DNA from: Nevskia soli
GTDB taxonomy: Bacteria > Pseudomonadota > Gammaproteobacteria > Nevskiales > Nevskiaceae
Length of the DNA: 32,701 nucleotides
Assembly (NCBI GenBank): GCA_026224805.1
Contig: JAMFRN010000005.1
Location: 1-32,701, forward strand
Direction: 5' to 3'
Under the pieces are notes generated by a model. That model made no database searches. It was not told the origin of the DNA and saw nothing but the letters and a program-made list of their open reading frames with translations. The position numbers and the translations under genes were made by a program. Of this stretch, positions 18,003-31,250 are shown piece after piece (the stretch's first letter is position 1; every line of letters begins with the position of its first letter).

Positions 18003-18716
18003 TTACTGCACGTCGGACAGCAGGCGCCCCGACTCCCTCCTGACCACGGCGTAACACTCGCAGGCGCGACTTTCCAGGCCATCCCGCTCGATCACCGAAA
18101 TATGGCCGCGCCGGTAGCTGATGACGCCGGCGCGCTGCAGGTTTCCGGCCGCCTCGGTAACGCCTTCCCGGCGCACGCCGAGCGCGCTGGCAACCAGTTC
18201 CTGTGTCATGATCAGCTCGTTCGCAGGCAGGCGATCGAGCGTGGCCAGCAGCCACCGGCTCAATTGCTGTTCGATCGAATGAAAGCGATTGCATGCGGCG
18301 GTCTGCGCCACCTGCGTCACCAGCACCTGCGTATAGCGCAGCAACAGGCGCTGCATCATTCCGGCCCGATTGAATTCCTCCTTCAGCAGCTTGCCCTGAA
18401 GGCGGTAACCGTGACCCGCGGTCTGCACCACCGCCGAACTGGGCGTCGTGTTGCCACCCATGAACAGGGACACGCCAAGCATGCCCTCGTTACCCACCCC
18501 CGCAAGCTCCGCCGATACGCCGGACTCGAGAATATAGAGCAGCGAAACGATGGCCGTGATGGGGAAGTAAGCATGCTGCAACTGGCCGCCGGGATCGTAA
18601 AGCGTGTCGCCGAGCCGCATCGGCACCAGTTCCAGATGGGGCGCCAGGCGCTCGAATTCCGGGGCAGGCAATGCTGCCAGCAGATGATTCTGATAGGGAC
18701 TGTGCGCTGATGCCAT
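18003..18716 (-). CDS. Crp/Fnr-family regulator (paralogue 1)
   Basis: 237 residues. N-terminal cyclic-nucleotide-like beta barrel (about 15-125, with HAYFPITAIVSLL), dimer helix, then HTH (TQELVASALGVRREGVTEAAGNLQ). The phosphate-binding cassette is degenerate (GMLGVSLFMGGNTTPSSAVV, without the Glu and Arg of CRP), so cAMP is unlikely as ligand. The C-terminus carries CECYAVV, shared with the two other Crp-like proteins in this window. ATG 18716 has AAGGG six bases upstream; a TTG at 18731 is an alternative. It is 24 bases downstream of the response regulator gene and so is the third gene of the kinase operon. Confidence 0.92.
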   Translation of the reverse strand: MASAHSPYQNHLLAALPAPEFERLAPHLELVPMRLGDTLYDPGGQLQHAYFPITAIVSLLYILESGVSAELAGVGNEGMLGVSLFMGGNTTPSSAVVQTAGHGYRLQGKLLKEEFNRAGMMQRLLLRYTQVLVTQVAQTAACNRFHSIEQQLSRWLLATLDRLPANELIMTQELVASALGVRREGVTEAAGNLQRAGVISYRRGHISVIERDGLESRACECYAVVRRESGRLLSDVQ

Positions 18717-18740
18717 GGCGGACCCTTGCAATCCTGTGTA

Positions 18741-19565
18741 CTACTGCTTGGCGGTAAGCTCGACGCCGATGCCGCGATAGCCGAGGAAGCGGCAGGACTG
18801 GTTGAACATCGGCTCTCCGCTGACCTGGAATTTCCGGCGCGAGCCATCCGCGCCGGTGCGGCTGAACACGAAGTCCAGGAAAGGCTGCCGCGCCTCGATC
18901 ATGGCCTCCAGCGTGTCCCGCTCCGCCTCATTCCAGCCACTAGCCCGGTCACTGCTTTTCTTTCCGGTAAGGCCGTCGACCTGGACGCCGAGCATTTCCA
19001 GCGCCGGACCGGAAACCTTGGTGAAGTTGCCGCTCTCGTCCTGCTCCCAGTACCAGTCCGAAGCCAGTTCGGTCAGGCTGCGAAAACGCGCTTCGCTCTC
19101 GCGCAGTTCCGCCGTGCGCTCCTGCACCATGTGTTCCAGCGTCTTGCTGTAGTTCTCCAGCATCTTGTACAACAACCGCACCTCCAGCATGTTGTGGATG
19201 CGGGTCCTGACTTCAACCAGATCGAACGGCTTGCTGATGAAGTCCTTGGCACCGGCCTGCAAGGCGCGCAGCTTGTGCCCCGGCTGTGCGGTCAGCACGA
19301 TTACGGGCAGGTAGCCGTCGGCATCATTGGTCTTGAGGCCTTCCATCACCTGGAAACCGTCCATGACCGGCATTTGTAGGTCGAGCAGGATCAGGTCGTA
19401 GCGGTTCTTGCGGTGCAGCGCGCAGACCTCCTGCGGCTTCGTAGTCGAAGCGACGCCGGTATAGCCCGTCTCGCCAAGCAACTGCTCCAGCAAGGCGACG
19501 TTGGACTCCTGGTCGTCGACGATCAGGATATTGGCTTTGAGGATGTCGGCTGCGGCAAGCATCAT
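18741..19565 (-). CDS. Response regulator: receiver plus PAS output
   Basis: 274 residues. Receiver domain at 12-130 with acidic pair D17/D18, phospho-acceptor D62 (LILLDLQMP), T92 and K112 (KPFD). A coiled linker (about 135-165, YSKTLEHMVQERTAELRESE) leads into a PAS domain (about 165-272). There is no DNA-binding, GGDEF or kinase domain, so output is probably by protein contact or sensing via PAS. The ATG overlaps the kinase stop (ATGA, 19562-19565). Together with the Crp gene this makes a three-gene signalling operon. Confidence 0.92.
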   Translation of the reverse strand: MMLAAADILKANILIVDDQESNVALLEQLLGETGYTGVASTTKPQEVCALHRKNRYDLILLDLQMPVMDGFQVMEGLKTNDADGYLPVIVLTAQPGHKLRALQAGAKDFISKPFDLVEVRTRIHNMLEVRLLYKMLENYSKTLEHMVQERTAELRESEARFRSLTELASDWYWEQDESGNFTKVSGPALEMLGVQVDGLTGKKSSDRASGWNEAERDTLEAMIEARQPFLDFVFSRTGADGSRRKFQVSGEPMFNQSCRFLGYRGIGVELTAKQ

Positions 19566-21271
19566 GCTCTTTTCTCTTTGTGCAAACGGATTGCTTCGGT
19601 TTTGGCGAACGCCAGGGTCAGGTCCAGCGTTTCCATGAATTCGTTGACCTTGATCGGCTTGGTCAGGTAGCGGTAGAACCCCGCCTCCATGCCTTTCTCG
19701 ATGTCGCGGGGCATGGCGTTGGCGCTGAGCGCCACCACCGGGATATGTGCGGTGGTCGGGTCGTCGGCAAGGATGCGCAGTGCCCTGATGCCGCTGATGC
19801 CGGGCAGGTTGATGTCCATCAGGATCACGTCCGGTAGGGAAGCGCGCGCGATCTCGATGCCGCTGATGCCGTCCCTGGCACTGAGCAGGCGAATATCCGA
19901 TCGGCGCGCCATCAGATCCTCCACCAGCATCAGATTGGCCGGGTTGTCCTCGACATAGAGCACGCTGCGCAACAGCGCATTGGCCTGGACTTTTACCTGG
20001 GGCACAGTCACCGGTTCGACTACGTCGGCGGCAACGGCTCGTTCGTCGGTCAGATTCAGTTCAAGCCAGAACACGCTGCCCGTGCCGACGGTGCTTTCCA
20101 CGCCGATGGCGCCCCCCATCAATTCGATCAGCCGCTTGCACACCACCAGGCCGATGCCGGTGCCTTCCTCCAGGCTCGCCTCCTGTCCGAGGCGATTGAA
20201 CGGCTGAAACAGTTGCATCAACTGGTCGGTGCTCAGGCCTTCGCCGTTATCCTGCACGGAAATGCGGGTACGCCCCGGGACGTTTTCCACACAGTCCACC
20301 ACCACGGCGCCGCCCACCTTGTTGTATTTGATCGCATTGGTCAGCAGGTTGATCAGAACCTGCTTGACCCGGGTGCGGTCGGCCTTGACGAAGCACGGCA
20401 CTTCAAACCACGGAAAGCGCACGCTGATGCCGCGCTTGTGCGCCTGCGGCTCGATCATGGCGCGGCATTCGTTCAGCACTTCGGCCAGCGAGATCGGTTC
20501 CAGCGACAGCGACAGCTTGCCCGACTCGATCACCGCCAGATCGAGGATCTCGTTGATCAGGTCCAGCAGATACCACCCGGCCTTGAGGATCTGGTCGACA
20601 CTGCGCCTCTGCGACACCGTCGGCGACGGCGAGCCGGATTCGATCAGTTGGGCAAAACCGAGAATGGCGCTGAGCGGCGTGCGCAGTTCATGGCTCATGC
20701 TCGAAAGGAAATCCGACTTGGCCAGGTTGGCTTTTTCCGCCACTGCCATGGCGTCGTGTAGTTCCAGCTCGACCTGCTTGCGTATTGAATTGTCGGCACC
20801 GATCAGCAGGTAGCCGATGATGTCGCCATAGTCATCGCGCAGCGCCGTGATCGAGACGATCGCCGGAAAGCGGCTGCCGTCCTTGCAGATATAGGTCAGC
20901 TCGTAGCTGTCCTCAATGCCGCGCGAAGCCTTGAAGGCTAGTGCCTCGAAGCCCGGCGTAATCGGTGTGGCGAGCTCCAGGCTCAAGGCCTGCGCCCGTG
21001 CAATCACTTCTTGCGGATCATGGATATCGCTAGGGCTGATCTTGTTGACTACCTCGGCGGCCTGATAGCCCAACATCCGCTCGGCGCCGATATTGAACAA
21101 CTGAATGATGCCCTTCTCGTCGGTGGCGATGATCGAAAAATTGGCACTGGTAAGGATTGCGTTCTGCAGCGCGCCGGTTTTGAGCAGGGCTTCCTGGCGG
21201 CGTACTTCACTGATGCCATCCGCCTTGCCGGCATCGTCGGTAACGGCGCTACCGTTTGCTTTTTCGAACAT
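19562..21271 (-). CDS. Hybrid sensor histidine kinase (PAS-HisKA-HATPase-REC)
   Basis: 569 residues with no TM segment, so cytoplasmic. PAS at about 30-150 with a PAC-like ESYKL-type region (EDSYELTYICKDGSRFP). HisKA with H194 (SMSHELRTPL). The HATPase domain has an N box (INLLTNAIKYN), G1 (DNGEG) and G2 (GTGIGLVVCKRLI). The C-terminal receiver has D486 (VILMDINLPG). ATG 21271 with AAGG upstream is chosen. The frame is open to an ATG at 21427, but that lies upstream of the proposed promoter -10 (21384-21389) and the extra residues have no domain. It is the first gene of the kinase-RR-Crp operon, under the Crp-type site at 21411. Confidence 0.93.
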   Translation of the reverse strand: MFEKANGSAVTDDAGKADGISEVRRQEALLKTGALQNAILTSANFSIIATDEKGIIQLFNIGAERMLGYQAAEVVNKISPSDIHDPQEVIARAQALSLELATPITPGFEALAFKASRGIEDSYELTYICKDGSRFPAIVSITALRDDYGDIIGYLLIGADNSIRKQVELELHDAMAVAEKANLAKSDFLSSMSHELRTPLSAILGFAQLIESGSPSPTVSQRRSVDQILKAGWYLLDLINEILDLAVIESGKLSLSLEPISLAEVLNECRAMIEPQAHKRGISVRFPWFEVPCFVKADRTRVKQVLINLLTNAIKYNKVGGAVVVDCVENVPGRTRISVQDNGEGLSTDQLMQLFQPFNRLGQEASLEEGTGIGLVVCKRLIELMGGAIGVESTVGTGSVFWLELNLTDERAVAADVVEPVTVPQVKVQANALLRSVLYVEDNPANLMLVEDLMARRSDIRLLSARDGISGIEIARASLPDVILMDINLPGISGIRALRILADDPTTAHIPVVALSANAMPRDIEKGMEAGFYRYLTKPIKVNEFMETLDLTLAFAKTEAIRLHKEKRA

Positions 21272-21383
21272 GACCAGCCTTGGTGTAAAGCTTGCAGTGA
21301 TATGGAAGCGGGTCTCGCAGCCGGAGGGGCGCAATGAGCACAGGAAAATCGGTTGACTGAGTTCCTGTTCCGGCGCGACAGAA

Positions 21384-21426
21384 ATTATTCCCGCCGCCCG
21401 GCGCGGCGTCTGTACGCTATCGTACA
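21384..21426 (-). promoter_or_regulatory. Crp-type promoter of the kinase operon (site 1)
   Basis: Perfect dyad TGTACG-CTAT-CGTACA (21411-21426), that is half-sites TGTAC/GTACA spaced 6. On the minus strand the -10 is AATAAT (21384-21389), its 5' edge 29.5 bp from the dyad centre. Inferred transcript start is about 21377 (dyad at -41.5). The leader to ATG 21271 is about 106 nt. Confidence 0.75.
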
Positions 21427-21462
21427 TACGGGGGATTGAACATCTCCAGACGCTCTGGCCGC

Positions 21463-21527
21463 ACCAATAAAATTTCGGCCCCTCAGCCCTGCGCCTGTAT
21501 CAAGGCTGAGAGCTGAGGGGCCGAAAT
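21463..21527 (-). terminator. Intrinsic terminator of the PGYW/ENK-repeat gene
   Basis: Perfect 16-bp inverted repeat ATTTCGGCCCCTCAGC (21472-21487) / GCTGAGGGGCCGAAAT (21512-21527). Read leftward it is followed by a TTTTATT tract, 44 bases after the stop of the gene at 21571. The loop contains a second copy of the GGCTGAG arm (21504-21510) that can form an alternative shorter stem with 21482-21488. Confidence 0.85.
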
Positions 21528-21570
21528 CATGCACTACTGAAGCAAGGCCACTACCGGCAAAACTCCGGCG

Positions 21571-22818
21571 CTAGTGATGCTCATGCTCCTGCCCGCCGCC
21601 CTCGTGCTGCGCTGCCGGCTGCGCGCGAGCCTGGGCCGGGACCTGGGCCTGCGGACGCGGCGCAGGCTGGGGACGTGCCTGGGCCTGTGGACGCGGCGCA
21701 GGCTGGGGACGCGCCTGAGCCTGCGGATGCGGTGCGGCGGGCTTGGGCGCGCTGCGCTGAACAGTTCTTGCCGGGGCGGCTGGGGCATGCGACTGGGCCA
21801 CTGCTGCCGGGCGCTTCGCGGCTACCGGAGCTCTGGCCGGCACCTTGTTCTCGGCGGTGGCCTTGTTTTCAGCCGCCGTCTTGTTTTCTGCAGTTGCCCT
21901 GTTCTCTACACCAGCCTTGTTCTCGGCGGTCGCTTTGTTTTCAGCAGTTGCCTTGTTCTCAGCCGCTGCCTTGTTCTCTACGCCCGCCTTGTTCTCAGCG
22001 GTCGCCTTGTTTTCCTCCGCTGCCTTGTTTGCGGCAGTCGCCTTGTTCTCGGTCGCGGCTTTGTTCTCGGCAGCCGCCTTGTTCTCCGCTCCGGCCTTGT
22101 TCTCGGCAGGAGCTTTGGCCTCAGCAGCGGCGGACGCCTTGAAATCAGCGGGCTTCGAGGTGGCAACGACGGCCGGATGGCCGTGGTTGACCGAATCACG
22201 CTGTGCCGGATTGGCGCGGGCGGTTTGCTCGTGCTGGGTCTGCACGGCAGTCGGCGCAACATGATTTTCATGGGCGAAGGTCTGCTGCTCGGCGGTCGGC
22301 CTGGCGCTGACGCCGCCGCTGCCGCCGTTGAAGCTGACGCGATTGACCGTGGTGTTGTTGACCACCTTTTCGTTGTAGGTGTTGTGGATGCTGCTGATAT
22401 TGACGTTGTTCACCGCCCGGTTGTAGGCGAACGAGCCATTGTTCCAGCGTCCACCGGAATAGCCGTCACCGCCGTAGCCGTAGCCATAGTTGACGCCGCC
22501 ATAGAAGCCGATATGCGGGCCCCAGTAACCCTGGTTGAACGCATAGTTGCCGTTCGACCAGCCCCAGTAACCCGGAGTCCACAGGACGCCGACCGAAGGC
22601 GGCTGAACCCAGGTGCCCGGCACCCAGAAGTAGCCGTCGTCACCGTAGGCCCAGTAACCGGGCGTCCACAGGTAACCGTCACCTGGTATCACCGGCTGCT
22701 CATAGACTGGCAGCTCCGGCGGCGCGATGGTAATGGAAATGCCGATCTGCGCGAAAGATGTCGCCGGCACGGCGAACATCGCCAGGGCCAGCGCCAGTGA
22801 ACGGATATAGGATGACAT
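21571..22818 (-). CDS. Secreted PGYW-repeat protein with an ENK hexapeptide repeat tail
   Basis: 415 residues. Signal peptide MSSYIRSLALALAMFAVPATSFA, cut before Q24. The N-terminal domain (about 45-130) has repeated W-x-PG-Y/T-W units (LWTPGYWAY, FWVPGTW, LWTPGYWGW, then NQGYWG), the YXWGxW/PGYW motif of envelope proteins. Then follow a Gly/Asn-rich part, 15 copies of a hexapeptide around AENKAx (about 235-325) and two copies of a QAQARPQPAPRP unit. A His-rich end (QEHEHH) could bind metal. ATG 22818 has GAGGTG (22826-22831) upstream; the in-frame ATG at 22857 lies upstream of the predicted transcript start (22838). The ENK tail is probably an extended, perhaps peptidoglycan-spanning, spacer; this is an inference. 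Confidence 0.85.
   Translation of the reverse strand: MSSYIRSLALALAMFAVPATSFAQIGISITIAPPELPVYEQPVIPGDGYLWTPGYWAYGDDGYFWVPGTWVQPPSVGVLWTPGYWGWSNGNYAFNQGYWGPHIGFYGGVNYGYGYGGDGYSGGRWNNGSFAYNRAVNNVNISSIHNTYNEKVVNNTTVNRVSFNGGSGGVSARPTAEQQTFAHENHVAPTAVQTQHEQTARANPAQRDSVNHGHPAVVATSKPADFKASAAAEAKAPAENKAGAENKAAAENKAATENKATAANKAAEENKATAENKAGVENKAAAENKATAENKATAENKAGVENRATAENKTAAENKATAENKVPARAPVAAKRPAAVAQSHAPAAPARTVQRSAPKPAAPHPQAQARPQPAPRPQAQARPQPAPRPQAQVPAQARAQPAAQHEGGGQEHEHH
21842..22113 (-). repeat. 18-bp minisatellite, 15 copies (ENK hexapeptide coding)
   Basis: Tandem 18-bp units, imperfect in sequence but exact in length, each encoding six residues with the core ENKA. Variants occur at the first and last positions (AENKAG, TENKAT, VENRAT, AANKAA). 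There is no indel inside units, so the reading frame is kept. Copy-number changes by slippage would alter the tail length. Confidence 0.85.
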
Positions 22819-22844
22819 GAGCAGGCACCTCAGTAGGAATGTCG

Positions 22845-22887
22845 AGTAAAGCGCCATTGGCCACGGCTGTCTGTGCGACAGCGTACG
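22845..22887 (-). promoter_or_regulatory. Crp-type promoter of the PGYW/ENK gene (site 2)
   Basis: Dyad TGTGCG-ACAG-CGTACG (22872-22887). On the minus strand the -10 is TTTACT (22845-22850), its 5' edge 29.5 bp from the dyad centre. Inferred start is about 22838, which leaves a 20-nt leader containing the GAGGTG ribosome site for ATG 22818. Confidence 0.65.
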
Positions 22888-22943
22888 CGGCGCCCGCGGC
22901 GTGATTCGCGACTACGCCGCAGGCCATCAGCGTTCAGCAGCAC

Positions 22944-22972
22944 AAAAAAAGGCCGCACTTTGCAGTGCGGCC
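22944..22972 (-). terminator. Intrinsic terminator of the DUF4398-OmpA operon
   Basis: Stem GGCCGCACT (22951-22959) / AGTGCGGCC (22964-22972) with a TTGC loop. Read leftward it is followed by seven T (A7 at 22944-22950). It lies 66 bases after the OmpA-family stop. A classic rho-independent terminator. Confidence 0.93.
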
Positions 22973-23037
22973 CCGATCATCCATGATCCCGACACCGGCC
23001 TTCCATGCCGGCGAATGGCGATGGTCAGCAGGACTGG

Positions 23038-23841
23038 CTACGCCGGCGGATCCTGAATGATCACTTCGACACGGCGATTGGCCTGCCGCCCGGCATCGGT
23101 GTTGTTGTCGGCGACCGGCGAGTTGTAGCCTTCGCCGACCGAGGTGACGCGGTTGCTGGCGATGCCGCGGCCGGTCAGATACAGCGCTACAGAATCGGCG
23201 CGCTTCTGCGACAGCGCCTGGTTCATGTCCTGGCCGCCGCGGTTGTCGGTATGGCCCTCGATACGGACGGTACGGTCCGGGGCCTGGCCCAGGAAAGTAA
23301 CCAGCCGATCGAGGTTCTCGACGCTGCCCGGCTTGAGGTCGGAGCGACCGGTAGAGAACAGCACATCGCCCAGCGTCAGCACCATGCCGCGGTCGGTCTT
23401 TTTCGCCTGCAAGGCCGCGAGCTGCGCCTGCAGATTGTCGTTCTTGAGCTTCTCGGCATTCGCTTCATTGGTGCGCGCGTTGAGCTGGATCTGCCCGTTC
23501 TGCTCGCTCAGCGTCTTACGCTGGTCCTCGTCGTACTTGGTCTGCGCCAGAGCCCGGGCAATCTGCACCCTGCGCTCGGCGATGTAGACCAGATGCGTCT
23601 CCACCACCGGATCGGTCTGCGGCACCTCGGCATCGCGCACCGCCGTGTCGGCGTCATTGATGGCGATCGGAGCGCGTCCGGCCAGGCGCGGATCGGACTG
23701 CAGATCGGTCAGCTCGGCGCGGGCCTTGGCGACGCCCGGATCCTTCACCACATCGGCCGCGCAGGCGGCGAGCAAGATGGCAGCGGCGCCCAACGTCGCA
23801 CCGCATAAACCGGACCGGATGACATTCTTGATCGTGTTCAT
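23038..23841 (-). CDS. OmpA-family lipoprotein with N-terminal DUF4398-like region
   Basis: 267 residues. Lipoprotein signal with lipobox LAAC (C27). The middle part (about 35-150) is helical and DUF4398-like (ARAELTDLQSD, RRVQIARALAQ, KLKNDNLQAQLAALQ). The C-terminal OmpA peptidoglycan-binding domain (about 155-262) contains LGDVLFSTGRSDLKPG, IEGHTDNRGG (the Asp contacts diaminopimelate) and LSQKRADSVALYL. It should tether the outer membrane to peptidoglycan. It is the second gene of an operon, 3 bases after the DUF4398 lipoprotein, under the promoter at 24345-24387. Confidence 0.93.
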   Translation of the reverse strand: MNTIKNVIRSGLCGATLGAAAILLAACAADVVKDPGVAKARAELTDLQSDPRLAGRAPIAINDADTAVRDAEVPQTDPVVETHLVYIAERRVQIARALAQTKYDEDQRKTLSEQNGQIQLNARTNEANAEKLKNDNLQAQLAALQAKKTDRGMVLTLGDVLFSTGRSDLKPGSVENLDRLVTFLGQAPDRTVRIEGHTDNRGGQDMNQALSQKRADSVALYLTGRGIASNRVTSVGEGYNSPVADNNTDAGRQANRRVEVIIQDPPA

Positions 23842-23844
23842 GCC

Positions 23845-24231
23845 TCAACCTCCCGAGCCGCGTTGTATTTCCTGATTCAAGGTGCTGTTGTTCTTCTGCA
23901 GCTCCTGGTTGACCGCCTCGGCCTTGCCCAGGTGCGCCTTGGCCGAAGCCAGATCGGCCTCGACACGCGCCTCGTCGGCTAGCGGCCGCGCCTGCGCCAC
24001 CTGCACCTCGTCGGTCTGCATGGCGTCGGCGCGCGCGGCGCTGATCTTCTCGTGCGCCGTGCGCATCTCCAGCGGCGCATAGTCGGCGGCGTGATCGTTC
24101 TCGGCGTTGGAGATGGCGATATCGGCGGCCTGGAAGGCATCGTTGGGTGGCAGCGGCACCGTGGCACAGGCGCCCAGCGCCAGAGCACCGACGGCGATGA
24201 GGATATAGGTTGAACGACTTGCTGTTTTCAT
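23845..24231 (-). CDS. DUF4398 lipoprotein
   Basis: 128 residues. Signal peptide with lipobox LGAC (C22), then a helical DUF4398 domain (DAFQAADIAISNAENDHAADYAPLEMR, then EARVEADLASAKAHLGKAEAVNQELQ). DUF4398 proteins often precede OmpA-domain lipoproteins in envelope-stress loci. It lies 3 bases upstream of the OmpA-family gene, so the two are cotranscribed. The function is unknown; the coiled helices suggest it pairs with the similar N-terminal region of its partner. Confidence 0.9.
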   Translation of the reverse strand: MKTASRSTYILIAVGALALGACATVPLPPNDAFQAADIAISNAENDHAADYAPLEMRTAHEKISAARADAMQTDEVQVAQARPLADEARVEADLASAKAHLGKAEAVNQELQKNNSTLNQEIQRGSGG

Positions 24232-24344
24232 GATGTGACCTTTGACGTAATCGATGAAACCGGAGCGCGGAAAATCGGTCGCGGAGGCTGCGTGCTTCCG
24301 GAAAACCCAGGCCGAGGCAGGGGCCGATTTCTTCGCGTCGGGAT

Positions 24345-24387
24345 GTTTTACGCGTGATCCCCAGGGCGGTCCGTCTGTAAGCGTACA
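24345..24387 (-). promoter_or_regulatory. Crp-type promoter of the DUF4398-OmpA operon (site 3, one weak half)
   Basis: On the minus strand TGTAC-GCTTAC-AGACG (24372-24387): one perfect half-site and one poor one. -10 TAAAAC (24345-24350) has its 5' edge 29.5 bp from the dyad centre. Inferred start about 24338, leader about 107 nt. I located this site partly by using the spacing seen in the stronger sites, so it is less independent. An everted dyad GTACA-N6-TGTAC (24383-24398) overlaps it. Confidence 0.5.
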
Positions 24388-24424
24388 TAGCGCTGTACGT
24401 GGCCGCGCCGCTAGCCGCTACTGA

Positions 24425-24571
24425 CTAGAGCCTTCTGCCCTGAATTACCCGCACCAGAATCACGATGATCGCCACGACCAGCAGGATGTGGATGAAGCCG
24501 CCCATGGTGTAGGAGGTGAGCAGTCCCAATGCCCAGCAAATCAATAGAATGACCGCGATGGCTTCAAGCAT
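24425..24571 (-). CDS. Lmo0937-family small membrane protein (48 residues)
   Basis: The frame opens MLEAIAVILLICWALGLLTS and ends VRVIQGRRL, with two TM helices (about 3-19 and 24-42) joined by YTMGGFIH. This matches the short Lmo0937/DUF5670 membrane peptides, including the central TMGGFIH and the basic C-terminus. AGGA and GGAG lie upstream of the ATG at 24571. Such genes are regularly found in stress and envelope clusters, and their role is unknown. No good Crp-type site could be placed upstream of this one. At 49 codons it is easily missed by gene callers. Confidence 0.88.
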   Translation of the reverse strand: MLEAIAVILLICWALGLLTSYTMGGFIHILLVVAIIVILVRVIQGRRL

Positions 24572-24832
24572 GGTCCTGATCTCCGGTTGCGTTACTTTCA
24601 CGAACTGCAGATGAGCAGAGTGAACGCTTCAGGCGGGCAAGCACCGTACGGCAGCACACCCATAGCCGGTAATTTCAGCGGCGGCATCAGCAATGCAGGT
24701 GCCGTACACCCAGCGGCCCGCCCGCCATGCAGGGCAACTGTGCGCAGCGAACGGCAACGGGCCAGAGGCGCCGACGCCTCGCTGCCGCACCAGCCGATGC
24801 AGGCTGTGCGGCAGCACGGATGTCGCAAACCG

Positions 24833-25132
24833 CTATCGGATATGAACCGGGAAAAACAGGCTGACGCCCGGCGAAGGCTGCGGCGGGTAGTACACCGGCG
24901 GCGGCGCGTAGACCTCGGCGGGCTCGTAGTAGCCGTTGCCGCGCCAGTCACCCCGGTCATAACCGTGACGCCAATGCCCTCCGCGGTCACCGCCCCGTCC
25001 GCCGTGGCCGCGGTCGCGGGCCAGAGCCGGTGACATCACCATGCCGCCGAACATCGCGGCGAGCGTCAAGGCTACGCCGAACTTGACTGCCGTGGCGCGC
25101 AAATTGCCGCGCCGCTTGGTTGAGAGTGTCAT
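24833..25132 (-). CDS. Small secreted Gly/Arg/His-rich protein
   Basis: 99 residues from ATG 25132. Signal peptide with hydrophobic core VKFGVALTLAAMFGGMVM and cut after ALA. The mature part starts RDRGHGGRGGDRGGHWRHGYD and then is Tyr/Pro-rich (YYEPAEVYAPPPVYYPPQ), ending in PVHIR. This pattern is typical of small periplasmic or surface proteins of unknown function. It lies 75 bases downstream of the LTxxQ gene on the same strand and is probably in its transcript. A palindrome at 25162-25178 sits between them. The start is uncertain; ATG 25147 is an alternative. Confidence 0.65.
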   Translation of the reverse strand: MTLSTKRRGNLRATAVKFGVALTLAAMFGGMVMSPALARDRGHGGRGGDRGGHWRHGYDRGDWRGNGYYEPAEVYAPPPVYYPPQPSPGVSLFFPVHIR

Positions 25133-25207
25133 GTGTAATTCATCCATGTTTGGAGGGATTTCCCGGCGCAGCGCCGGGCTTCGCATCTCGGGACCAGGCA
25201 ATGCCGA

Positions 25208-25747
25208 TCAGCCGGCCTTGGCGGCCATGCGCTTTGCTGCCTTGCGGCCGCTGTCGCGGAAGATGCTATCGGCATTGGCCTTCTGCTCACTCGACATGCT
25301 GTCGTACAACGTGCCGAATACCGGCGCGAACTTCTGGATGCCGTCGGCGTGCGCCTGGGCGATCTGGCCGTAGGATTTGAGATCGTCGACGGCGGTCATG
25401 GTCTTCGCGCCGCCGCTTCTGGCCTCGATCAGCGTGGACATGGTGGCTTCATTGTCGCGCATCACCTGGGCTACCTTGCCCCATGAATCCTCCTGCGTCG
25501 CCGTGATGGCGAGCCGGGTGTGCAGATCCTTGATGCGCGCTTCGACCTTTGCGTCCATGCGAGCCGCGACTGCCGGGGTCCCAGAGGACGCCGGCGCGAT
25601 ATCCGCGGCCGCCAGGACCACGCGAATCTGCGGAGCCTGGCTGTCGGCCGCGGCCACCGGAATGACGGCGGCGATGGCGGCAAGGAAAGCCACGGCGGCG
25701 ATGGCACGCGCGGCGGGGAATGCGGACTGACGGAATATTCTTTGCAT
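25208..25747 (-). CDS. Spy/CpxP-like LTxxQ-motif periplasmic protein
   Basis: 179 residues. Signal peptide (hydrophobic AIAAVAFLAAIAAVIPV, cut near VAAA-D). The mature helical protein contains LHTRLAITATQEDSWGKVAQ and DNEATM, where LAITATQ is the LTxxQ motif, and a second degenerate copy (LYDSMSSEQKANAD). Members such as Spy and CpxP are periplasmic chaperones or stress sensors induced by envelope damage. ATG 25747 has GGAG 8 bases upstream. It is under the divergent Crp-type promoter at 25858-25900, with a leader of about 104 nt. Confidence 0.87.
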   Translation of the reverse strand: MQRIFRQSAFPAARAIAAVAFLAAIAAVIPVAAADSQAPQIRVVLAAADIAPASSGTPAVAARMDAKVEARIKDLHTRLAITATQEDSWGKVAQVMRDNEATMSTLIEARSGGAKTMTAVDDLKSYGQIAQAHADGIQKFAPVFGTLYDSMSSEQKANADSIFRDSGRKAAKRMAAKAG

Positions 25748-25857
25748 GATCTGGACTCCGGATTGGGGAACTGGGGATGCGCCTGCTGTGCGGCGCGACA
25801 GCTGTGGCTTCACGCAACAATCCGTTCGCTGGCACAGCCTGCCGAATCGACCGGCCC

Positions 25858-25900
25858 AACATAGGGGCTCGGGCAAAGGCGGTCAGTTCGCTATCGAACA
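25858..25900 (-). promoter_or_regulatory. Crp-type promoter of the LTxxQ gene (site 4)
   Basis: Dyad AGTTCG-CTAT-CGAACA (25885-25900), perfect over the inner 14 bp. On the minus strand the -10 is TATGTT (25858-25863), its 5' edge 29.5 bp from the centre. Inferred start about 25851. The spacer GCTATC is the same as in site 1. Confidence 0.65.
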
Positions 25901-25951
25901 TAGGCGCGGCGGTTGCGGCGGCCTCGGCTGCACCGGTCGCAGCGGCTGTTC

Positions 25952-25994
25952 GGTACGGAATCGCACAGAGCGGCCGCCCGCCGGCAGGTATATT
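25952..25994 (+). promoter_or_regulatory. Crp-type promoter of the small membrane gene at 26042 (site 5)
   Basis: GGTAC-GGAATC-GCACA (25952-25967) followed at the standard spacing by a near-perfect -10 TATATT (25989-25994). Inferred start about 26001, leader about 41 nt. It is divergent from site 4, with the two centres 67 bp apart. Located partly by the spacing rule. Confidence 0.55.
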
Positions 25995-26041
25995 CAGGCC
26001 GTCGCCGGAGCACCTTCGCTCCGCGCCAATGAGGTAAAGCC

Positions 26042-26308
26042 ATGCCTTTTCTGCTGGTGATCGTGGCACTGATCGCGCCGCGCGTGGTTCTGTTCATGCT
26101 GTGGTTCCTCACTACCTGGCCGCGCGGCATGTTTCACACCCTGCTGTGGCCGATCCTGGGCTTCATCCTGCTGCCTACGACGCTACTCTGCTACATGGTC
26201 GTGCAGCACTGGTTCGGCGGACACTGGACGCTGTGGCCGGTGGTCGCCATCGTCGTCGCCCTGCTGATCGACTTGTCCCCTACCGGTGGCCGCCGCTGGC
26301 AGCGCTGA
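26042..26308 (+). CDS. Small hydrophobic membrane protein (88 residues)
   Basis: Three hydrophobic stretches (about 3-22, 30-52 and 62-77) with motifs LLVIVALIAPRVVLFMLWF, TTWPRGMFHTLLWPILGF and LWPVVAIVVALLIDLSPTGG. I recall similar conserved hypothetical membrane proteins with PR-LLW-F..FHT-LWP in several phyla; function unknown. GAGG (26030-26033) is 8 bases upstream of the ATG. It has its own Crp-type promoter (25952-25994) and sits just before the second crp-like gene. Confidence 0.75.
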   Translation: MPFLLVIVALIAPRVVLFMLWFLTTWPRGMFHTLLWPILGFILLPTTLLCYMVVQHWFGGHWTLWPVVAIVVALLIDLSPTGGRRWQR

Positions 26309-26381
26309 CGCAGCGCCGCAACAGCATACCCATGATGTATCCGGCAGCGCACGCCGGCAGCCTGAATTCCACTGGCGGCAA

Positions 26382-26424
26382 TGTACGCAAGCGTACGGAT
26401 GAAAGACAGGATTTACTGTATAAA
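26382..26424 (+). promoter_or_regulatory. Crp-type promoter of crp-like gene 2 (site 6)
   Basis: Dyad TGTACG-CAAG-CGTACG (26382-26397) and a strong -10 TATAAA (26419-26424), 5' edge 29.5 bp from the dyad centre. Inferred start about 26431, only 11 nt before the GTG at 26442. Implies autoregulation. Confidence 0.75.
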
Positions 26425-26441
26425 TCAGGGTTGGCAGGGTC

Positions 26442-27218
26442 GTGTCCCTCGCCGTCATCGTCGTATCGCACCTGCCGTTGCCGCTCAAGGATCACCTCAT
26501 TCTCCCCGCTCACCAACCCCAGCAAAACCGTCTTCTGGCCGTCCTGCCGGAGGCGGAGCGCGGGCGCCTGTTTCCTCACCTGGAACAGGTACCGATGAAG
26601 CTCGGCCATGTGCTGTACGAGCCCGGTGTCGCCTTGCAGCACGTCTACTTCCCGGCCGACAGCATCGTCTCCCTCCTCTATGTGATGGAAAACGGCGCCT
26701 CGGCCGAAATCGCGGTGGTAGGCAAGGAAGGCATCGTCGGCATCTCCCTGTTCATGGGCGGCGAAACCACGCCGAGCCGTGCGGTGGTGCAAAGCGCCGG
26801 CTACGCCTACCGGCTGCCGGCGCCCCTGTTGAAGGAGGAATTCGGCCGCTCCGGCGCCGTGCAGCATCTGCTGCTGCGTTATACCCAGGCCCTGCTGACG
26901 CAGATGGCGCAGACGGCGGTGTGCAACCGGCATCATTCGGTCGAGCAGCAGCTGTGCCGCTGGCTGCTGCTCAGCCTCGATCGCCTGTCCGACAACAACC
27001 TGACCATGACCCAGGAACTGATCGCCAACATGCTCGGCGTGCGCCGCGAAGGGGTCACCGAAGCAGCGGGCAAGCTGCAGACGGCGGGCCTGATCAGCTA
27101 CAGCCGCGGCAAGATCATCGTGCTGGACCGCCCACGGCTGGAGAAAAAGGCCTGCGAATGCTATGCCGTGGTCAAGACCGAATTCGACCGCCTGCTGCCC
27201 GACATCATGGCGAACTAA
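26442..27218 (+). CDS. Crp/Fnr-family regulator (paralogue 2)
   Basis: 258 residues from GTG 26442 (AGGG 2 bases upstream). The start is uncertain because residues 1-25 have no counterpart in paralogue 1; the shared core begins at QNRLLAVLP. cNMP-like barrel with HVYFPADSIVSLL and cassette GISLFMGGETTPSRAVV, then HTH TQELIANMLGVRREGVTEAAGKLQ. The recognition helix RREGVTEAAG is identical to that of paralogue 1, so both should read the same operator. The C-terminus has CECYAVV. The promoter carries a strong copy of the proposed operator (26382-26397), pointing to autoregulation. Confidence 0.92.
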   Translation: MSLAVIVVSHLPLPLKDHLILPAHQPQQNRLLAVLPEAERGRLFPHLEQVPMKLGHVLYEPGVALQHVYFPADSIVSLLYVMENGASAEIAVVGKEGIVGISLFMGGETTPSRAVVQSAGYAYRLPAPLLKEEFGRSGAVQHLLLRYTQALLTQMAQTAVCNRHHSVEQQLCRWLLLSLDRLSDNNLTMTQELIANMLGVRREGVTEAAGKLQTAGLISYSRGKIIVLDRPRLEKKACECYAVVKTEFDRLLPDIMAN

Positions 27219-27306
27219 GTCCCGCACAAAAACCGACCCCGCACCTCACGGAATCCCCGCGGCACGCAGCACCGAATCGCCGCCAATGCAGCCAGTATTC
27301 GAACTA

Positions 27307-27349
27307 TGCGCGTTAACGCACTGAAAACCCGGCGGTAATCGCATACGCT
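27307..27349 (+). promoter_or_regulatory. Crp-type promoter of crp-like gene 3 (site 7, weaker)
   Basis: TGCGC-GTTAAC-GCACT (27307-27322) contains the perfect palindrome GCGTTAACGC (27310-27319). A -10-like TACGCT (27344-27349) has its 5' edge 29.5 bp from the centre; it keeps only TA...T. Inferred start about 27356, leader about 67 nt with a small hairpin GCACG-GTTCC-CGTGC. Confidence 0.45.
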
Positions 27350-27422
27350 CCGCCATCTGAGTCGCCCCTGGCACGGTTCCCGTGCAGCCGGCTTGGCTCC
27401 TACGCCACGGCGGGAGGGTTGT

Positions 27423-28130
27423 ATGTCTCACGCAACTCCGCGGCCGGTGGTCAATCGACTGCTTGAGGTTTTGCCGCGCTCCATCCGGCAAAGAATGCTG
27501 CAGCGCTGCGAGCCGGTCGAACTCGACTTCGGCGTGGTTCTCAGCGAAGCCGGCGACCCCATCCGCCATGTCTACTTCCCCACCGGCGGCTTCATTTCCC
27601 TGATTGCCGCACTGCAGGACCAGGCCTCCCTGGAAGTCGGCCTGATCGGCAACGAAGGCATGCTCGGGGTGTCGCTGGTGCTGGGGGTCGATACCTCGCC
27701 GATGCGGGCCCTGGTGCAGGGATCAGGCAGCGCACTGCGCATGCCAGCGGCGATCTTCCGCGGCGAACTGGAGCGCAGCCCGGTGCTGCGACGCAACCTC
27801 GACCGCTACGTCTATGTGCTGCTGGCCCAGCTCGCACAAACCGCCGCCTGCACCTGCTTCCATGTCCTGGAAGCGCGCCTGGCGCGCTGGCTGCTGATGA
27901 CCCACGATCGCGCCCACGCCGACCATTTCTTCCTCACCCATGCCCTGCTTTCGAACATGCTGGGGGTGCGCCGCAGCGGCGTCACCCGTGCCGCCGGCGA
28001 GCTGCAGCGCAGGAAACTGATCCACTACAGCCGCGGCGATGTCACCGTGCTCGATCGCAAGGGCCTGGAAAAGGCGTCGTGCGAATGCTACGCGGCAGTG
28101 ATCGCGGATTACGATCGGCTGCTCAACTGA
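27423..28130 (+). CDS. Crp/Fnr-family regulator (paralogue 3)
   Basis: 235 residues from ATG 27423 (GGGAGGG 4 bases upstream). Barrel with HVYFPTGGFISLIAAL and cassette GMLGVSLVLGVDTSPMRALV, HTH THALLSNMLGVRRSGVTRAAGELQ, C-terminus CECYAAV. The recognition helix differs from the other two paralogues at RRSGVTRAAG (Ser for Glu, Arg for Glu), so its operator preference may be altered. This matches the deviating site upstream of its own gene. It ends 98 bases before the Crp-type site of the small RNA. Confidence 0.92.
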   Translation: MSHATPRPVVNRLLEVLPRSIRQRMLQRCEPVELDFGVVLSEAGDPIRHVYFPTGGFISLIAALQDQASLEVGLIGNEGMLGVSLVLGVDTSPMRALVQGSGSALRMPAAIFRGELERSPVLRRNLDRYVYVLLAQLAQTAACTCFHVLEARLARWLLMTHDRAHADHFFLTHALLSNMLGVRRSGVTRAAGELQRRKLIHYSRGDVTVLDRKGLEKASCECYAAVIADYDRLLN

Positions 28131-28227
28131 GTTGCCCGGCCGCTGCGCCTGGCATCCTGCGCCGACGGCCGGCAATGTACGGCCGGTTCGGCACTTGGCC
28201 CAGCGATCGGGCGAATCGCTTTGTCTG

Positions 28228-28270
28228 TGTGCTCTATCGCACAGATTTCGGGCGCCGCCGCGCGCAATAT
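28228..28270 (+). promoter_or_regulatory. Crp-type promoter of the candidate small RNA (site 8)
   Basis: Dyad TGTGC-TCTATC-GCACA (28228-28243), perfect 5-bp half-sites. -10-like CAATAT (28265-28270) with its 5' edge 29.5 bp from the centre; inferred start about 28277. No open frame with a ribosome site follows before the terminator at 28373. Confidence 0.65.
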
Positions 28271-28276
28271 CGCGGC

Positions 28277-28409
28277 TGCATCGACAAGAACTCTGATCCG
28301 CGCATTTCTCCCCCCAAGAGACTTTGGTCTTTATCCCCTTTGGGCCAAAGCTCGGCGCGGATTCGACACTCGCCCGTCCGTAGGTGATCTCCGCGGACGG
28401 GTTCTTTTT
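28277..28409 (+). ncRNA. Candidate small regulatory RNA with C-rich loops
   Basis: About 133 nt between a Crp-type promoter and an intrinsic terminator, without a plausible gene. Folding by eye: an 8-bp closing stem ATCCGCGC (28296-28303) / GCGCGGAT (28355-28362). Inside it is a small hairpin TCTC-CCCCCAA-GAGA (28307-28321) showing a C-rich loop and a hairpin CTTTGG (28322-28327) / CCAAAG (28345-28350) whose loop contains CCCC (28335-28338). Then comes the terminator stem. C4-C6 loops are how sX13-type RNAs of Xanthomonas (from memory) bind G-rich ribosome sites. UCCCCC (28309-28314) could pair with GGGGGA in the ribosome site of the gene at 28597 and of the gene at 15896. Confidence 0.65.
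28373..28409 (+). terminator. Intrinsic terminator of the small RNA
   Basis: Stem CCCGTCCG (28373-28380) / CGGACGGG (28394-28401), 13-nt loop, then TTCTTTTT (28402-28409). It is 243 bases after the crp-like gene 3 stop, too far to be simply that gene's terminator. Confidence 0.92.
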
Positions 28410-28481
28410 GTCCATCGCTCCGGCTTCCACGGTCCGCGCTCACCACCCCAGGCAGTCACCATTCGGCGAGACCGGACTGTT

Positions 28482-28524
28482 TGTGCGGCAGCGAACCGAC
28501 CAGCCAGCCGCCGCCGCCTATCTT
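28482..28524 (+). promoter_or_regulatory. Crp-type promoter of the gene at 28597 (site 9)
   Basis: TGTGC-GGCAGC-GAACC (28482-28497) and -10 TATCTT (28519-28524), 5' edge exactly 29.5 bp from the dyad centre. Inferred start about 28531, leader about 66 nt. Confidence 0.55.
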
Positions 28525-28596
28525 CACCACGTTCGCACGGCCGGGTAATCCCGGCGGCGGTTTGAAGAGGCGTCCTTGCACAGGGGGAATCACAGC

Positions 28597-28950
28597 ATGA
28601 TCCGTCACCACGTCACCCAGGACCTTCTTTCCGCAGAAGCGGCGCCCATGTACTTCGGGTCGGGCATGACTGCGATACCACATGCGGCGCCGCTTCCAGG
28701 CCGTGCGGAAACCCAGGGCAGCAGCCACTACGGCACGACAGCAACACACCCATTCGCATTTTATGCGGCGCCGTTGTCGACGCTGGTGCTGCTGGTGGTA
28801 TCGATCGTCGCCCTGTCGGCACTGCTGAAACTGCATCGGGAAACAGTCGGTCTTCGCCGCATCCGCGATAGATATCGCGCGTTCGTCGGCAGCACCCTGA
28901 TCCCGATCCCGCTGCCGGTGAACTTGAAAGTGCGCAAGCGGCCGCGCTGA
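28597..28950 (+). CDS. Small single-TM protein of unknown function
   Basis: 117 residues. The hydrophilic N-terminus (about 1-50, His-rich: MIRHHVTQ, then HYGTTATHPFAF) is followed by one TM helix (about 58-76, LSTLVLLVVSIVALSALL) and a basic tail (RRIRDRYRAF, ending KVRKRPR). No family is recognised. AGGGGGAA (28582-28589) precedes the ATG at 28597 and is a plausible target for the C-rich loops of the neighbouring RNA. It has its own Crp-type promoter at 28482-28524. Confidence 0.6.
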   Translation: MIRHHVTQDLLSAEAAPMYFGSGMTAIPHAAPLPGRAETQGSSHYGTTATHPFAFYAAPLSTLVLLVVSIVALSALLKLHRETVGLRRIRDRYRAFVGSTLIPIPLPVNLKVRKRPR

Positions 28951-29289
28951 GCGGATCGGAACGGCGCACATCTCCGGCGCCGCCATTCCCGTCTGCCTCC
29001 CTCGACGGCAAATCGCTTCCTATGCAAGCGGCAACTTGTACTGCGGCAGGAAATTGCCGACCCGCCTGCCGGCCTTTTCGCCGCTGACGGCATACCGTCC
29101 CTGCACCAGGCCGATCAATTTTTTGCGTCCGCTGCCGCACAGACCATGGGGGCAGTATCGCCGACGATACCGCGTGTGTTCACAGAACTCGGGGCGGCAT
29201 GTTCACATGAAGACCAGAACGAACCAGCGAAAATCCCGGCCGGGAGTCGCCGGCTGCGCGACAGATATCCACCTGCCGGCAGCCATCGC
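28951..29289. other. Intergenic region with a 16-bp dyad
   Basis: No gene is recognised with confidence. A perfect dyad GTATCG-CCGA-CGATAC lies at 29155-29170, with the same 16-bp geometry as the Crp-type sites but different half-sites and no -10 at the expected position. GTTC-ACA-GAAC also occurs nearby (29182-29192). It may be a binding site for another regulator. Confidence 0.35.
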
Positions 29290-29367
29290 ATGATCATCGG
29301 TTCGTTACAGCATGCCCATGCCGCGACGATCACCGGCAGTGGCGGCGTGAAAACCTACATTGACGAT

Positions 29368-29580
29368 ATGAACCTGATCGGCACCGTCCTGCGCAGTTCG
29401 CCGCAATCCTTCTCCTGGTGGACTGTCGTACTCCTGGTTCTGATCCTGCTGGCATGGTGCGCGGCGCTGACCGCAGCATGGATCTATTTGATGCGCCGCA
29501 TCGGTAGATCGGCAAATCCCGGCGGCGAGTCCATTAGCACTCGACGCGATCGCCCGCTTCTTATAGCCGATGCGCCTTAG
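29368..29580 (+). CDS. Putative small single-TM protein
   Basis: 70 residues from ATG 29368; the frame also allows ATG 29290 or GTG 29347, and no start has a clear ribosome site. One strong TM (about 17-38, WWTVVLLVLILLAWCAALTAAW) then a basic segment YLMRRIGRSANPGG. The hydrophobic helix followed by positive residues looks like a real membrane peptide, and it sits in a cluster rich in such genes. No family is recognised and there is no other support. Confidence 0.4.
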   Translation: MNLIGTVLRSSPQSFSWWTVVLLVLILLAWCAALTAAWIYLMRRIGRSANPGGESISTRRDRPLLIADAP

Positions 29581-29739
29581 ACTGCTGCGAAGAAAAGCCT
29601 GGCGCAGTGAGACCGCACGCCGCTCCGTGTCCTCATCCCTGTGAGGTAGGCAGGGCACCCTCTTCCGATTCGACAATGCAGCCCGGCGACACGCGGCATC
29701 AGCCGCAGTGCGCATGCTTTGCTGGAGGAGCGGAATCCG

Positions 29740-31107
29740 ATGCATCGAGCGATATTCTTCACTGCCGTGGCGCTCGCCCTGGCGGCCGCGGCACCGGCAT
29801 CGGCCCGCGCGCCAGCCGCGCTGGCGGCGCAACTGGACGGCCCGAAGTACACCTGCATGGGCGCCGAGCGCGCGGGTAGCACCGACGGGGTTGCCGCCTA
29901 TAGCGGCAAGTTTCTGGGCACCTGGCCGGCCCTGAAGGCGCCGCAGGGCTACGATCCCGGCCCGTACGCTGGGGAAAAACCGCTGTTCACCATCACCGCG
30001 CAGAACATGGCACAGTACGCCGGGCAGCTCGGCGAAGGCCAGAAGGCGCTACTGCAAAAATATCCGCAATCGTTCCGCATGCCGGTCTATCCCAGCCACC
30101 GCGACTTCCGCTACGCCGACCGGGTCTGCGCCACGGTGAAGGACAACGTCCTCAACGCCGAGCTGCGCGCCGACGGCCTGTCCACCACGCAGGCGCTGGG
30201 CGGCATCCCCTTCCCATTCCCGCAGAGCGGCCTCGAGGCCATCTACAACATCGAGCGCGGCGCCGCCGAGTGGACCGACTCGGTGGTCTACGACATCGCC
30301 GACGTCTACCCCGGCGGCTCGACCGCCTGGGGCCGGACCCGCCTCAAGGTCCTGGTGCCGTCCAACGACCCGCGCCTGGCCGCGCCGATGAAAACGCCGG
30401 CCCAGGCCATTGCCGCCTATTTCTATCACGAACAGATGCTGCCGCAGCGCGACAAGGGCACCATCAGCGTCGGCAACACCAACAACGACTACAAGGACAG
30501 CCAGATCACCGCCTGGGTCTACAACCCCGGTCTGCGCCGCGCCAAGCAAGCCATGGACGTGGGCTCGGACTACCCGGTACCGCCGGGCGGCATGCACACC
30601 GTGGACGACGAGTCCCTGTTCGGCGGCACGCCCCAGCACTTCACCTGGAAGCTGCTGGGCAAGAAAGAGATCTATGTGCCCTACGACAATTTCCGCATCA
30701 ACGACCCCGCGCTGAAATACAGCGAGCTGGTCAGGCCGGATACCCTCAACCCCGACGAGCAGCGCTATGAGCTCCACCGCGTCTGGATCGTGGAGGGAGA
30801 CTTGCGGCCGGGCGAGCGCCACGTCTACAGCAAGCGCGTGCTCTACATCGACGAGGACAGCTGGGCGGCCCTGTGGAGCGACGGCTACGACACGCGCGGC
30901 CAGCTATGGCGCACCAGCTTCGCCGACTACTTCTACTCCCCCGCCTCGCAGGCCTTCGAGCGCGGCGTCATCGTCTACCACGACCTCAGCAGCGGCGCCT
31001 ACGAGGCCGAATACCTGGTCAACGAATCGAGGGACTGGTGGCGCTTCAACGATCCCGGCTACACGCCGATGATGTTCGGGCCCAGCGCGCTGTCCAACGG
31101 CCACTAG
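29740..31107 (+). CDS. DUF1329 family periplasmic/outer-membrane protein
   Basis: 455 residues. Signal peptide MHRAIFFTAVALALAAAAPASA. The mature protein has the DUF1329 (PF07044) features: GEKPLFTITAQNMAQYAGQLGEGQKALLQKYP near the N-terminus (split here into its motifs GEKP, ITAQN and LGEGQKALL), later GGIPFPFPQSGLEAI, and YPVPPGGMHTVDDESLF. The C-terminus has DEDSWAALWSDGYDTRGQLWR. DUF1329 proteins have a LolB-like fold and often accompany outer-membrane DUF1302 proteins in bacteria using hydrophobic substrates. The partner is not in this window. GGAGGAG (29724-29730) lies 9 bases before the ATG. No Crp-type site was found upstream. Confidence 0.9.
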   Translation: MHRAIFFTAVALALAAAAPASARAPAALAAQLDGPKYTCMGAERAGSTDGVAAYSGKFLGTWPALKAPQGYDPGPYAGEKPLFTITAQNMAQYAGQLGEGQKALLQKYPQSFRMPVYPSHRDFRYADRVCATVKDNVLNAELRADGLSTTQALGGIPFPFPQSGLEAIYNIERGAAEWTDSVVYDIADVYPGGSTAWGRTRLKVLVPSNDPRLAAPMKTPAQAIAAYFYHEQMLPQRDKGTISVGNTNNDYKDSQITAWVYNPGLRRAKQAMDVGSDYPVPPGGMHTVDDESLFGGTPQHFTWKLLGKKEIYVPYDNFRINDPALKYSELVRPDTLNPDEQRYELHRVWIVEGDLRPGERHVYSKRVLYIDEDSWAALWSDGYDTRGQLWRTSFADYFYSPASQAFERGVIVYHDLSSGAYEAEYLVNESRDWWRFNDPGYTPMMFGPSALSNGH

Positions 31108-31126
31108 AACTCATCTCACCAATGTC

Positions 31127-31196
31127 CCCTCTCCCTGCGAAGCGGGGAGAGGGCCAGGGCCAGGGGTACCGGCGAAGCCGGCTCACGCGCAGCGTG
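31127..31196. repeat. Cluster of three small hairpins between convergent genes
   Basis: CCCTCTCCC / GGGAGAGGG (31127-31153), then CCGGC-GAA-GCCGG (31169-31181), then CACGC-GCA-GCGTG (31184-31196). They lie just after the DUF1329 gene, with the convergent flavin-reductase gene ending at 31251, so they may serve as a two-way terminator. The three-nucleotide loops resemble the palindromes at 12573 and 25162, suggesting a dispersed REP-like element. Confidence 0.55.
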
Positions 31197-31250
31197 TCCG
31201 GTCGCACCGCTAAGCCCGGCCGCTCTGCATCTCCGGACCCGCCGCCCGCC

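Follow-up and report, generated by a model that had tools for sequence, protein, structure and literature searches.

The window analysed here is a 32,701-nucleotide (32.7-kb) stretch of the Nevskia soli genome. It contains a series of promoters that share one palindromic operator, together with three genes, P1, P2 and P3, encoding regulators of the Crp/Fnr superfamily. In each promoter a 16-bp dyad stands upstream of a -10-like hexamer, as given below. The scores are those of an oriented matrix comprising both the dyad and the -10, built from 61 sites from other genomes.

P1, 26442-27218, plus strand: Crp/Fnr-family regulator (HTH_Crp_2, cNMP_binding)
P2, 27423-28130, plus strand: Crp/Fnr-family regulator
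P3, 18003-18718, minus strand: Crp/Fnr-family regulator, third gene after dyad 1
Dyad 1, 21411-21426, minus strand: -10 AATAAT at 21389-21384, predicted start 21377, before the histidine kinase, response regulator and third crp-like (P3) genes, score 35.2
Dyad 2, 22872-22887, minus strand: -10 TTTACT, predicted start 22838, before the WXXGXW protein gene, score 20.7
Dyad 3, 24372-24387, minus strand: -10 TAAAAC, predicted start 24338, before the DUF4398 and OmpA/DUF4398 genes, score 17.0
Dyad 4, 25885-25900, minus strand: -10 TATGTT, predicted start 25851, before the LTXXQ (Spy-like) gene, score 28.5
Dyad 5, 25952-25967, plus strand: -10 TATATT, predicted start 26001, before the 88-aa protein gene, score 26.6
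Dyad 6, 26382-26397, plus strand: -10 TATAAA, predicted start 26431, before the crp-like gene P1, score 24.8
Dyad 7, 27307-27322, plus strand: -10 TACGCT, predicted start 27356, before the crp-like gene P2, score 19.9
Dyad 8, 28228-28243, plus strand: -10 CAATAT, predicted start 28277, before a small RNA, score 23.6
Dyad 9, 28482-28497, plus strand: -10 TATCTT, predicted start 28531, before the 117-aa protein gene, score 27.3
Dyad 10, 29126-29141, plus strand: weak -10 GACGAT, predicted start 29175, before the 96-aa protein gene, score 23.8

The first nine dyads and their -10 hexamers had been proposed in the original prediction, made from the sequence of the window; all nine are present at the coordinates first given, and in every case the -10 begins at base 30 past the dyad centre (29.5 bp). 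Dyad 10 is additional. The motif, first written as TGTNC-N6-GNACA, stands as a dyad and is better described by the 20-bp operator consensus TNTGTNCGNYRNCGNACANA.

To avoid circularity the matrices were built from other genomes only, using loci that carry relatives of P1 (the best 80 of 582 candidates). The perfect form TGTNCGN4CGNACA occurs 74 times in these 80 loci, while the median of 30 half-site arrangements, the target included, was 1.5 and the next best arrangement gave 10. With a dyad-only matrix from these 74 perfect dyads, sites 1 to 9 ranked 1, 8, 11, 2, 4, 6, 9, 3 and 5 in the whole window, the other members of the top 11 being 29126 (rank 7, the tenth likely site) and 1279 (rank 10); the weakest of the nine, site 3 at 24372, had a dyad-only score of 4.9. 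When the -10 was included in the oriented matrix, the nine sites and 29126 became the ten best places in the window (35.2 to 17.0), and the top score in the reversed window was 6.9. To rule out a leak from close relatives, both matrices were constructed again with the four loci from the family of the window omitted (72 dyads and 53 oriented sites remaining), and neither the ranks nor the top ten changed. In 100 dinucleotide shuffles of the window the mean number of matches at that level was 0.01 and the maximum 1, compared to ten places in the window itself, so that the pairing of dyad and -10 held up against shuffled controls. Chance origin was ruled out by these shuffles, by permuted half-sites and by reversed sequence.

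A dyad at about -41.5 is the class II geometry established for CRP and FNR; class II activation requires one main spacing, while repression tolerates many positions. The ten promoters of the window, with their predicted starts, fit this position and its fixed relation to the -10 by sequence, as originally proposed, and so do most of those in relatives. When the 74 perfect dyads, picked without regard to a -10, were read both ways, a TATAAT-like hexamer was found 18 times at offset 30, with 6 at the next best offset and a mean of 1.5 over 81 offsets. A larger set of 275 sites was divided into three score classes, and in two of these offset 30 had 24 hexamers (93 sites) and 34 hexamers (125 sites), compared to means of 1.5 and 2.1 at the other offsets. 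The claim of a fixed distance is correct for all sites of the window and too strict for the relatives, in which the spacing is mostly 30 and at times 29 or 31; offset 31 was raised in part of the score classes and offset 29 in the highest one. For the ten window sites, TATAAT matches numbered 40 at offset 30, 21 at the next best and on average 11.2 (standard deviation 3.5) at the others, a count which is partly circular because three of the ten sites were placed with help from the spacing. Over the 80 loci, which are the source of its 61 training sites, the oriented matrix gave 335 matches scoring at least 14, compared to 1 in reversed sequence. The flanks of the dyad are asymmetric, with TA before and GA after, which gives the site a direction.

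A dyad lying over the -35 position could also block the polymerase, the genes being switched on when the protein leaves. Both modes are possible at that position, and negative autoregulation would be consistent with the sites upstream of the regulator genes. Class II activation, however, needs one main spacing, as seen here (30, less often 29 or 31), and we infer activation; repression is regarded as unlikely.

The occurrence of the sites follows that of the regulator. In 100 genomes, the source genome included, a P1-type regulator was taken as present when there was a match at E 1e-40 or better, and matches to the dyad plus -10 were counted. The 35 genomes with a P1-type regulator had 97 matches (control 8) and the 65 without one had 30 (control 27; p 1.7e-7). 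Within the family the corresponding figures were 88 matches (control 5) in 33 genomes and 8 (control 7) in 25 genomes (p 2e-5). At least two matches were found in 21 of the 35 genomes with the regulator. A search of 100 genomes with the exact pattern TGTNCGNYRNCGNACA was discarded in favour of the dyad plus -10 as too permissive in high-GC DNA, since it matched in 81 of them, including genomes that lack the regulator.

These counts also bear on the question of whether the dyads are simply sites of the host's ordinary CRP/Vfr or FNR/ANR, the linked crp-like genes being mere targets. The half-sites of CRP and FNR are TGTGA and TTGAT, respectively. Neither the E. coli-type CRP half-site nor that of FNR/ANR is present here: the half-site TGTNCG matches neither, as the original prediction had claimed. 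The dyads are of the 16-bp Crp/Fnr type at the classical class II position, and an ANR-like protein has been proposed as oxygen-sensing regulator in Burkholderia cenocepacia, a species with a low-oxygen stress locus (PMC3759415, PMC9104464, PMC6127331). Genomes without a P1-type regulator, several of them with weak P1 matches only, nevertheless have the motif at control level. Canonical CRP or FNR was thus rejected as the binder on the half-site and the presence test, and we consider such an explanation highly improbable.

The regulator genes themselves are recurrent targets. Upstream sequence of at least 200 bp was available for 164 distinct Crp-like genes in 110 loci, and 67 of them had an upstream site scoring at least 14 (65 of 162 without the window's own genes), compared to 0 in reversed controls. 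By type, such a site preceded 35 of 110 P1-type, 31 of 45 P2-type and 1 of 9 P3-type genes, again with 0 in reversed sequence. In the window, sites lie directly before P1 and P2 and before the kinase-response regulator-crp group that contains P3. Both the autoregulation and the target assignment of the original prediction (two crp-like genes directly, the third through its group) are thereby borne out at the level of sequence.

P1, P2 and P3 are Crp/Fnr superfamily regulators of a little-studied subfamily. All three score above the gathering score of HTH_Crp_2 (27), with 57.5, 56.3 and 43.3, respectively, whereas for the cNMP-binding beta-barrel (cut-off 27.5) P1 is above (31.4) and P2 (23.6) and P3 (23.1) are below. 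An AlphaFold2 prediction of P1 has the Crp fold (pLDDT 85). Its best structure match in the PDB is CRP of M. tuberculosis, and the closest of the 50 matches listed are structures of mycobacterial CRP, GlxR and FNR, with which it has 15-21 % identity. When sequences were compared, the best matches in the PDB were a Eubacterium protein (3.7e-7) and NtcA (4.2e-6). In 42 sequences selected from the 80 loci, the relatives and the window, R201, R202, G204 and T206 of the recognition helix are invariant (P1 numbering), and so are C161, H165 and the C238-E-C240-Y motif, which are common to all three paralogue types. The first cysteine of P1 is residue 161, and the N-terminal cysteine cluster of FNR is absent.

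It is possible that the acting form is a P1-P2 pair, as a heterodimer or by division of labour, rather than P1 alone. The 25 genomes with both P1- and P2-type genes had 92 matches and the 10 with one type had 5 (p 1.6e-4); the groups were assigned by table reading, so this sorting is a lead and not a result. The one-type genomes are thus at background level, suggesting that P1 alone may not suffice. The mean number of dyads was likewise higher in the 36 loci with a P2-type gene (4.6) than in the 44 without (2.7; p 2e-4). Copy number and kinship however confound these comparisons, and the invariant residues of the recognition helix are common to all types. We regard the pair as a tentative option, of lesser likelihood than not.

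The original prediction described the regulon as local, which proved too narrow. A scan of the source genome that allowed up to 2 mismatches gave 28 oriented places, compared to 5 for the reversed pattern; with up to 3 mismatches the count was near the control (133 and 117), and 2 mismatches were therefore used. On other contigs, sites precede a fourth crp paralogue (C136, directly), a YSC84 gene (C228), an OmpA gene (C116) and a gene for a lipase-like lipoprotein (C130), and sites also occur in Beta- and Gammaproteobacteria and on plasmids. The 80 loci, ten stretches of the source genome and the window together had 360 oriented sites, 271 of them with a downstream open reading frame (ORF), representing 256 distinct proteins. 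These included 52 Crp-like, 11 BON, 10 CsbD, 8 PAS kinase, 7 YSC84 and 7 DUF4398 proteins and smaller clusters of DUF3309 (6), PAS-GGDEF (6), a cluster without Pfam family (5), glycine zipper (4), OmpA (4) and phasin (3) proteins. The clusters were named from one scanned representative each, the Crp-like one from its members P1 and P2; one cluster taken for PAS kinases was renamed PAS-GGDEF after the scan. Many of the 104 singletons are perhaps false ORFs. A good site (25.4) was also seen at about 4726 of another locus of the source genome (L219, G000:C5), before a short DciA-family gene, an unusual target and perhaps due to chance.

A relative of P1 at E 1e-40 was found in 59 of 72,556 plasmid records, three of which were read for sites. 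pKLC102 (L250), a conjugative plasmid of Pseudomonas aeruginosa, has class II sites with predicted starts at 8216, 10216, 14271 and 14411, before a gene group ending in crp, a hypothetical gene, a fatty acid desaturase gene and another hypothetical gene, from which it appears that the regulon travels. On a Cupriavidus pauculus plasmid sites precede phaP and a divergent gene, and on a Paraburkholderia plasmid they precede metal transporter, alcohol dehydrogenase, DUF3309 and YSC84 genes.

The remaining features of the window that lie behind the dyads are the following.

19562-21271, minus strand: PAS-histidine kinase-receiver protein; translation is assumed to begin at an in-frame ATG that follows the predicted transcript start
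18741-19565, minus strand: response regulator with PAS domain
21571-22818, minus strand: WXXGXW-repeat protein, start codon read from the sequence
23845-24231, minus strand: DUF4398 protein
23038-23841, minus strand: OmpA-domain protein with DUF4398
25208-25747, minus strand: LTXXQ (Spy/CpxP-like) protein
26042-26308, plus strand: 88-aa protein, membrane-like by sequence, no Pfam or NCBIfam family
28277-28410 (end approximate), plus strand: small RNA of about 130 nt, predicted start from the dyad 8 promoter
28597-28950, plus strand: 117-aa protein, membrane-like by sequence, no Pfam or NCBIfam family
29290-29580, plus strand: 96-aa protein, membrane-like by sequence, no Pfam family and an NCBIfam match below cut-off only

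The WXXGXW protein has about fifteen TAENKA-like repeats in a long run, followed by a proline/glutamine-rich tail. Between its gene and the promoter region of site 1 there is a strong hairpin (21473-21526), noticed through weak Rfam matches, which resembles a bidirectional terminator. The third gene on the strand of site 4 encodes a 46-aa DUF5670 protein (24434-24571).

The dyad and the -10 at 28228 stand as predicted; what had been missed is that a putative small RNA, not a called gene, lies downstream. There is no called gene within 450 bases on that strand. The RNA has a closing stem and a C-rich stretch, UUCUCCCCCC, at 28306, which is unpaired in the predicted fold; the arms of its terminator begin at 28372 and 28394, and a T-run comes after them. 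The RNA strand folds better than any of its shuffles (z -3.5), with the terminator at its end, and the sequence recurs in two related genomes directly behind a dyad promoter. Searched with a first model, built from three sequences, 11 of 100 genomes had matches, 14 in total; with a second one, built from eight, 19 of 61 genomes had 24 matches. Of 26 matches examined, 11 had a dyad (score at least 13.7) with a predicted start between -20 and +14 of the RNA start; the other 15 had none (best score -0.2) and were removed from the family. The 11 are the RNA of the window and ten further copies or likenesses, including copies in two further named loci. Three of them had been used to build the first model and a further five to build the second, which leaves C86, L047 and L044; the 61 sites from which the promoter matrix was built include the dyads of L016/G005 and L044. 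The C86 case is a weaker second likeness in the source genome (L216, G000:C86, 2798-2935), with a weaker dyad before it. Base pairs changed on both sides numbered 18 of 32, compared to a shuffled mean of 7.2 (0 of 500 as high). Rfam searches of positions 17000-32701 of the window (E 5) and of five relatives (E 0.5) gave no match to the RNA region. In betaproteobacteria, terminators followed 27 of 311 oriented sites, with 14 in the upstream control, and there were just three similar pairs, one of which was the RNA described here; the RNA is therefore claimed only in the family and order of the window.

The C-rich stretch could pair with Shine-Dalgarno regions. In an exploratory comparison of twelve leaders of the window, the best predicted duplexes were those with the leaders of the 117-aa gene (-15.1, a value reached by none of 89 background leaders) and of P2 (-13.4), which are perhaps its targets. 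The 117-aa gene begins about 190 bp downstream of the RNA, and 28277-28410 might thus be its leader or an attenuator and not an independent RNA. This is improbable, as the RNA is closed by a terminator, the 117-aa gene has a dyad promoter of its own (28482), and copies of the RNA occur at several other loci (three in G008 and the second one in the source genome, at C86).

We propose that these elements form a class II activator regulon under a little-studied, autoregulating Crp/Fnr subfamily, whose members here are P1, P2, P3 and other paralogues of the genome; we assign this reading a probability of roughly 0.86. Its basis is computed: the motif, the fixed spacing, the recurrence with the regulator, the autoregulatory sites, and the RNA structure with its recurrent dyad promoter. 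Several observations weigh against it. In the lowest score class (57 sites) offset 30 had 4 hexamers, offset 31 had 5 and others up to 4, and the dyad is symmetrical, so that orientation depends on the -10 and the flanks. Of the 360 oriented sites, 146 lie inside a called ORF, perhaps due to overcalling by a simple gene caller in high-GC DNA. Fewer than two matches were found in 14 of the 35 regulator-bearing genomes, and the one-type genomes do not rise above background. No site scoring at least 14 precedes 75 of the 110 distinct P1-type genes, some of which have a -10 displaced by one position. Of the three plasmids read, those of Cupriavidus pauculus and Paraburkholderia lack a site before crp itself. 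With regard to the RNA, C86, L047 and L044 have RNA scores as weak as those of the rejected matches, the alignment was fitted to its model, and conservation of helix 2 is poor, with pairing in 62 % of cells.

In the proposed regulon a dimer would bind the operator TNTGTNCGNYRNCGNACANA with its centre at about -41.5, covering the -35 position, and would bring RNA polymerase to promoters which possess a -10 but depend on the activator. The targets would be the regulator genes, the PAS kinase-response regulator group, small membrane-like proteins, envelope and stress proteins, and the small RNA of about 130 nt, which would end in an intrinsic terminator and expose its C-rich stretch for Shine-Dalgarno pairing. 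The regulon may have a role in stress. One may further speculate that this is a mobile and so far undescribed stress circuit, in which the P1-P2 pair senses a redox or metal signal via C161, H165 and C238-E-C240-Y and drives envelope-protection genes and the small RNA, which would close a feedback loop on P2; we hold this rather doubtful.

Crp/Fnr paralogues of this kind are common in the sampled Beta- and Gammaproteobacteria and occur also on plasmids. With a specific operator and a fixed spacing their regulons become readable in any genome, and a likely regulatory setting is provided for envelope proteins of unknown function (DUF3309, DUF4398, YSC84, CsbD and BON). A small RNA family with a testable function is added. 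In the titles and abstracts of the open-access papers listed this operator was not found described, which is weak evidence, and no operator, signal or regulon was found there for Crp/Fnr paralogues of the P1 type. The regulon is a new one of a known type, with an operator and an RNA family for which no description was found in that literature.

Compared to known systems, the regulon shares the Crp fold, the 16-bp dyad and class II promoters with the E. coli CRP/Vfr regulons, whereas the half-site is TGTNCG and there is no close sequence relation between the regulators. FNR/ANR regulons also combine class II promoters with small RNA members, the FNR-controlled FnrS being an example, but differ in the operator and in the N-terminal cysteines, which are absent from P1. 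The lxa locus of Burkholderia cenocepacia is similar in its clustered stress genes and in having a Crp/Fnr-type protein as proposed regulator; this is the ANR-like BCAM0049, and no mention of a motif with which the operator could be compared was found in the three reports cited above. Cyanobacterial NtcA provides the nearest named NCBIfam model for P1 and P2 (TIGR03697), although their scores of 27.3 and 21.8 are far below its cut-off (244.95). The NtcA operator, GTAN8TAC near -41.5, resembles those versions of the present dyad that contain TGTA, while the CG steps in the half-site and the targets distinguish the regulon described here.

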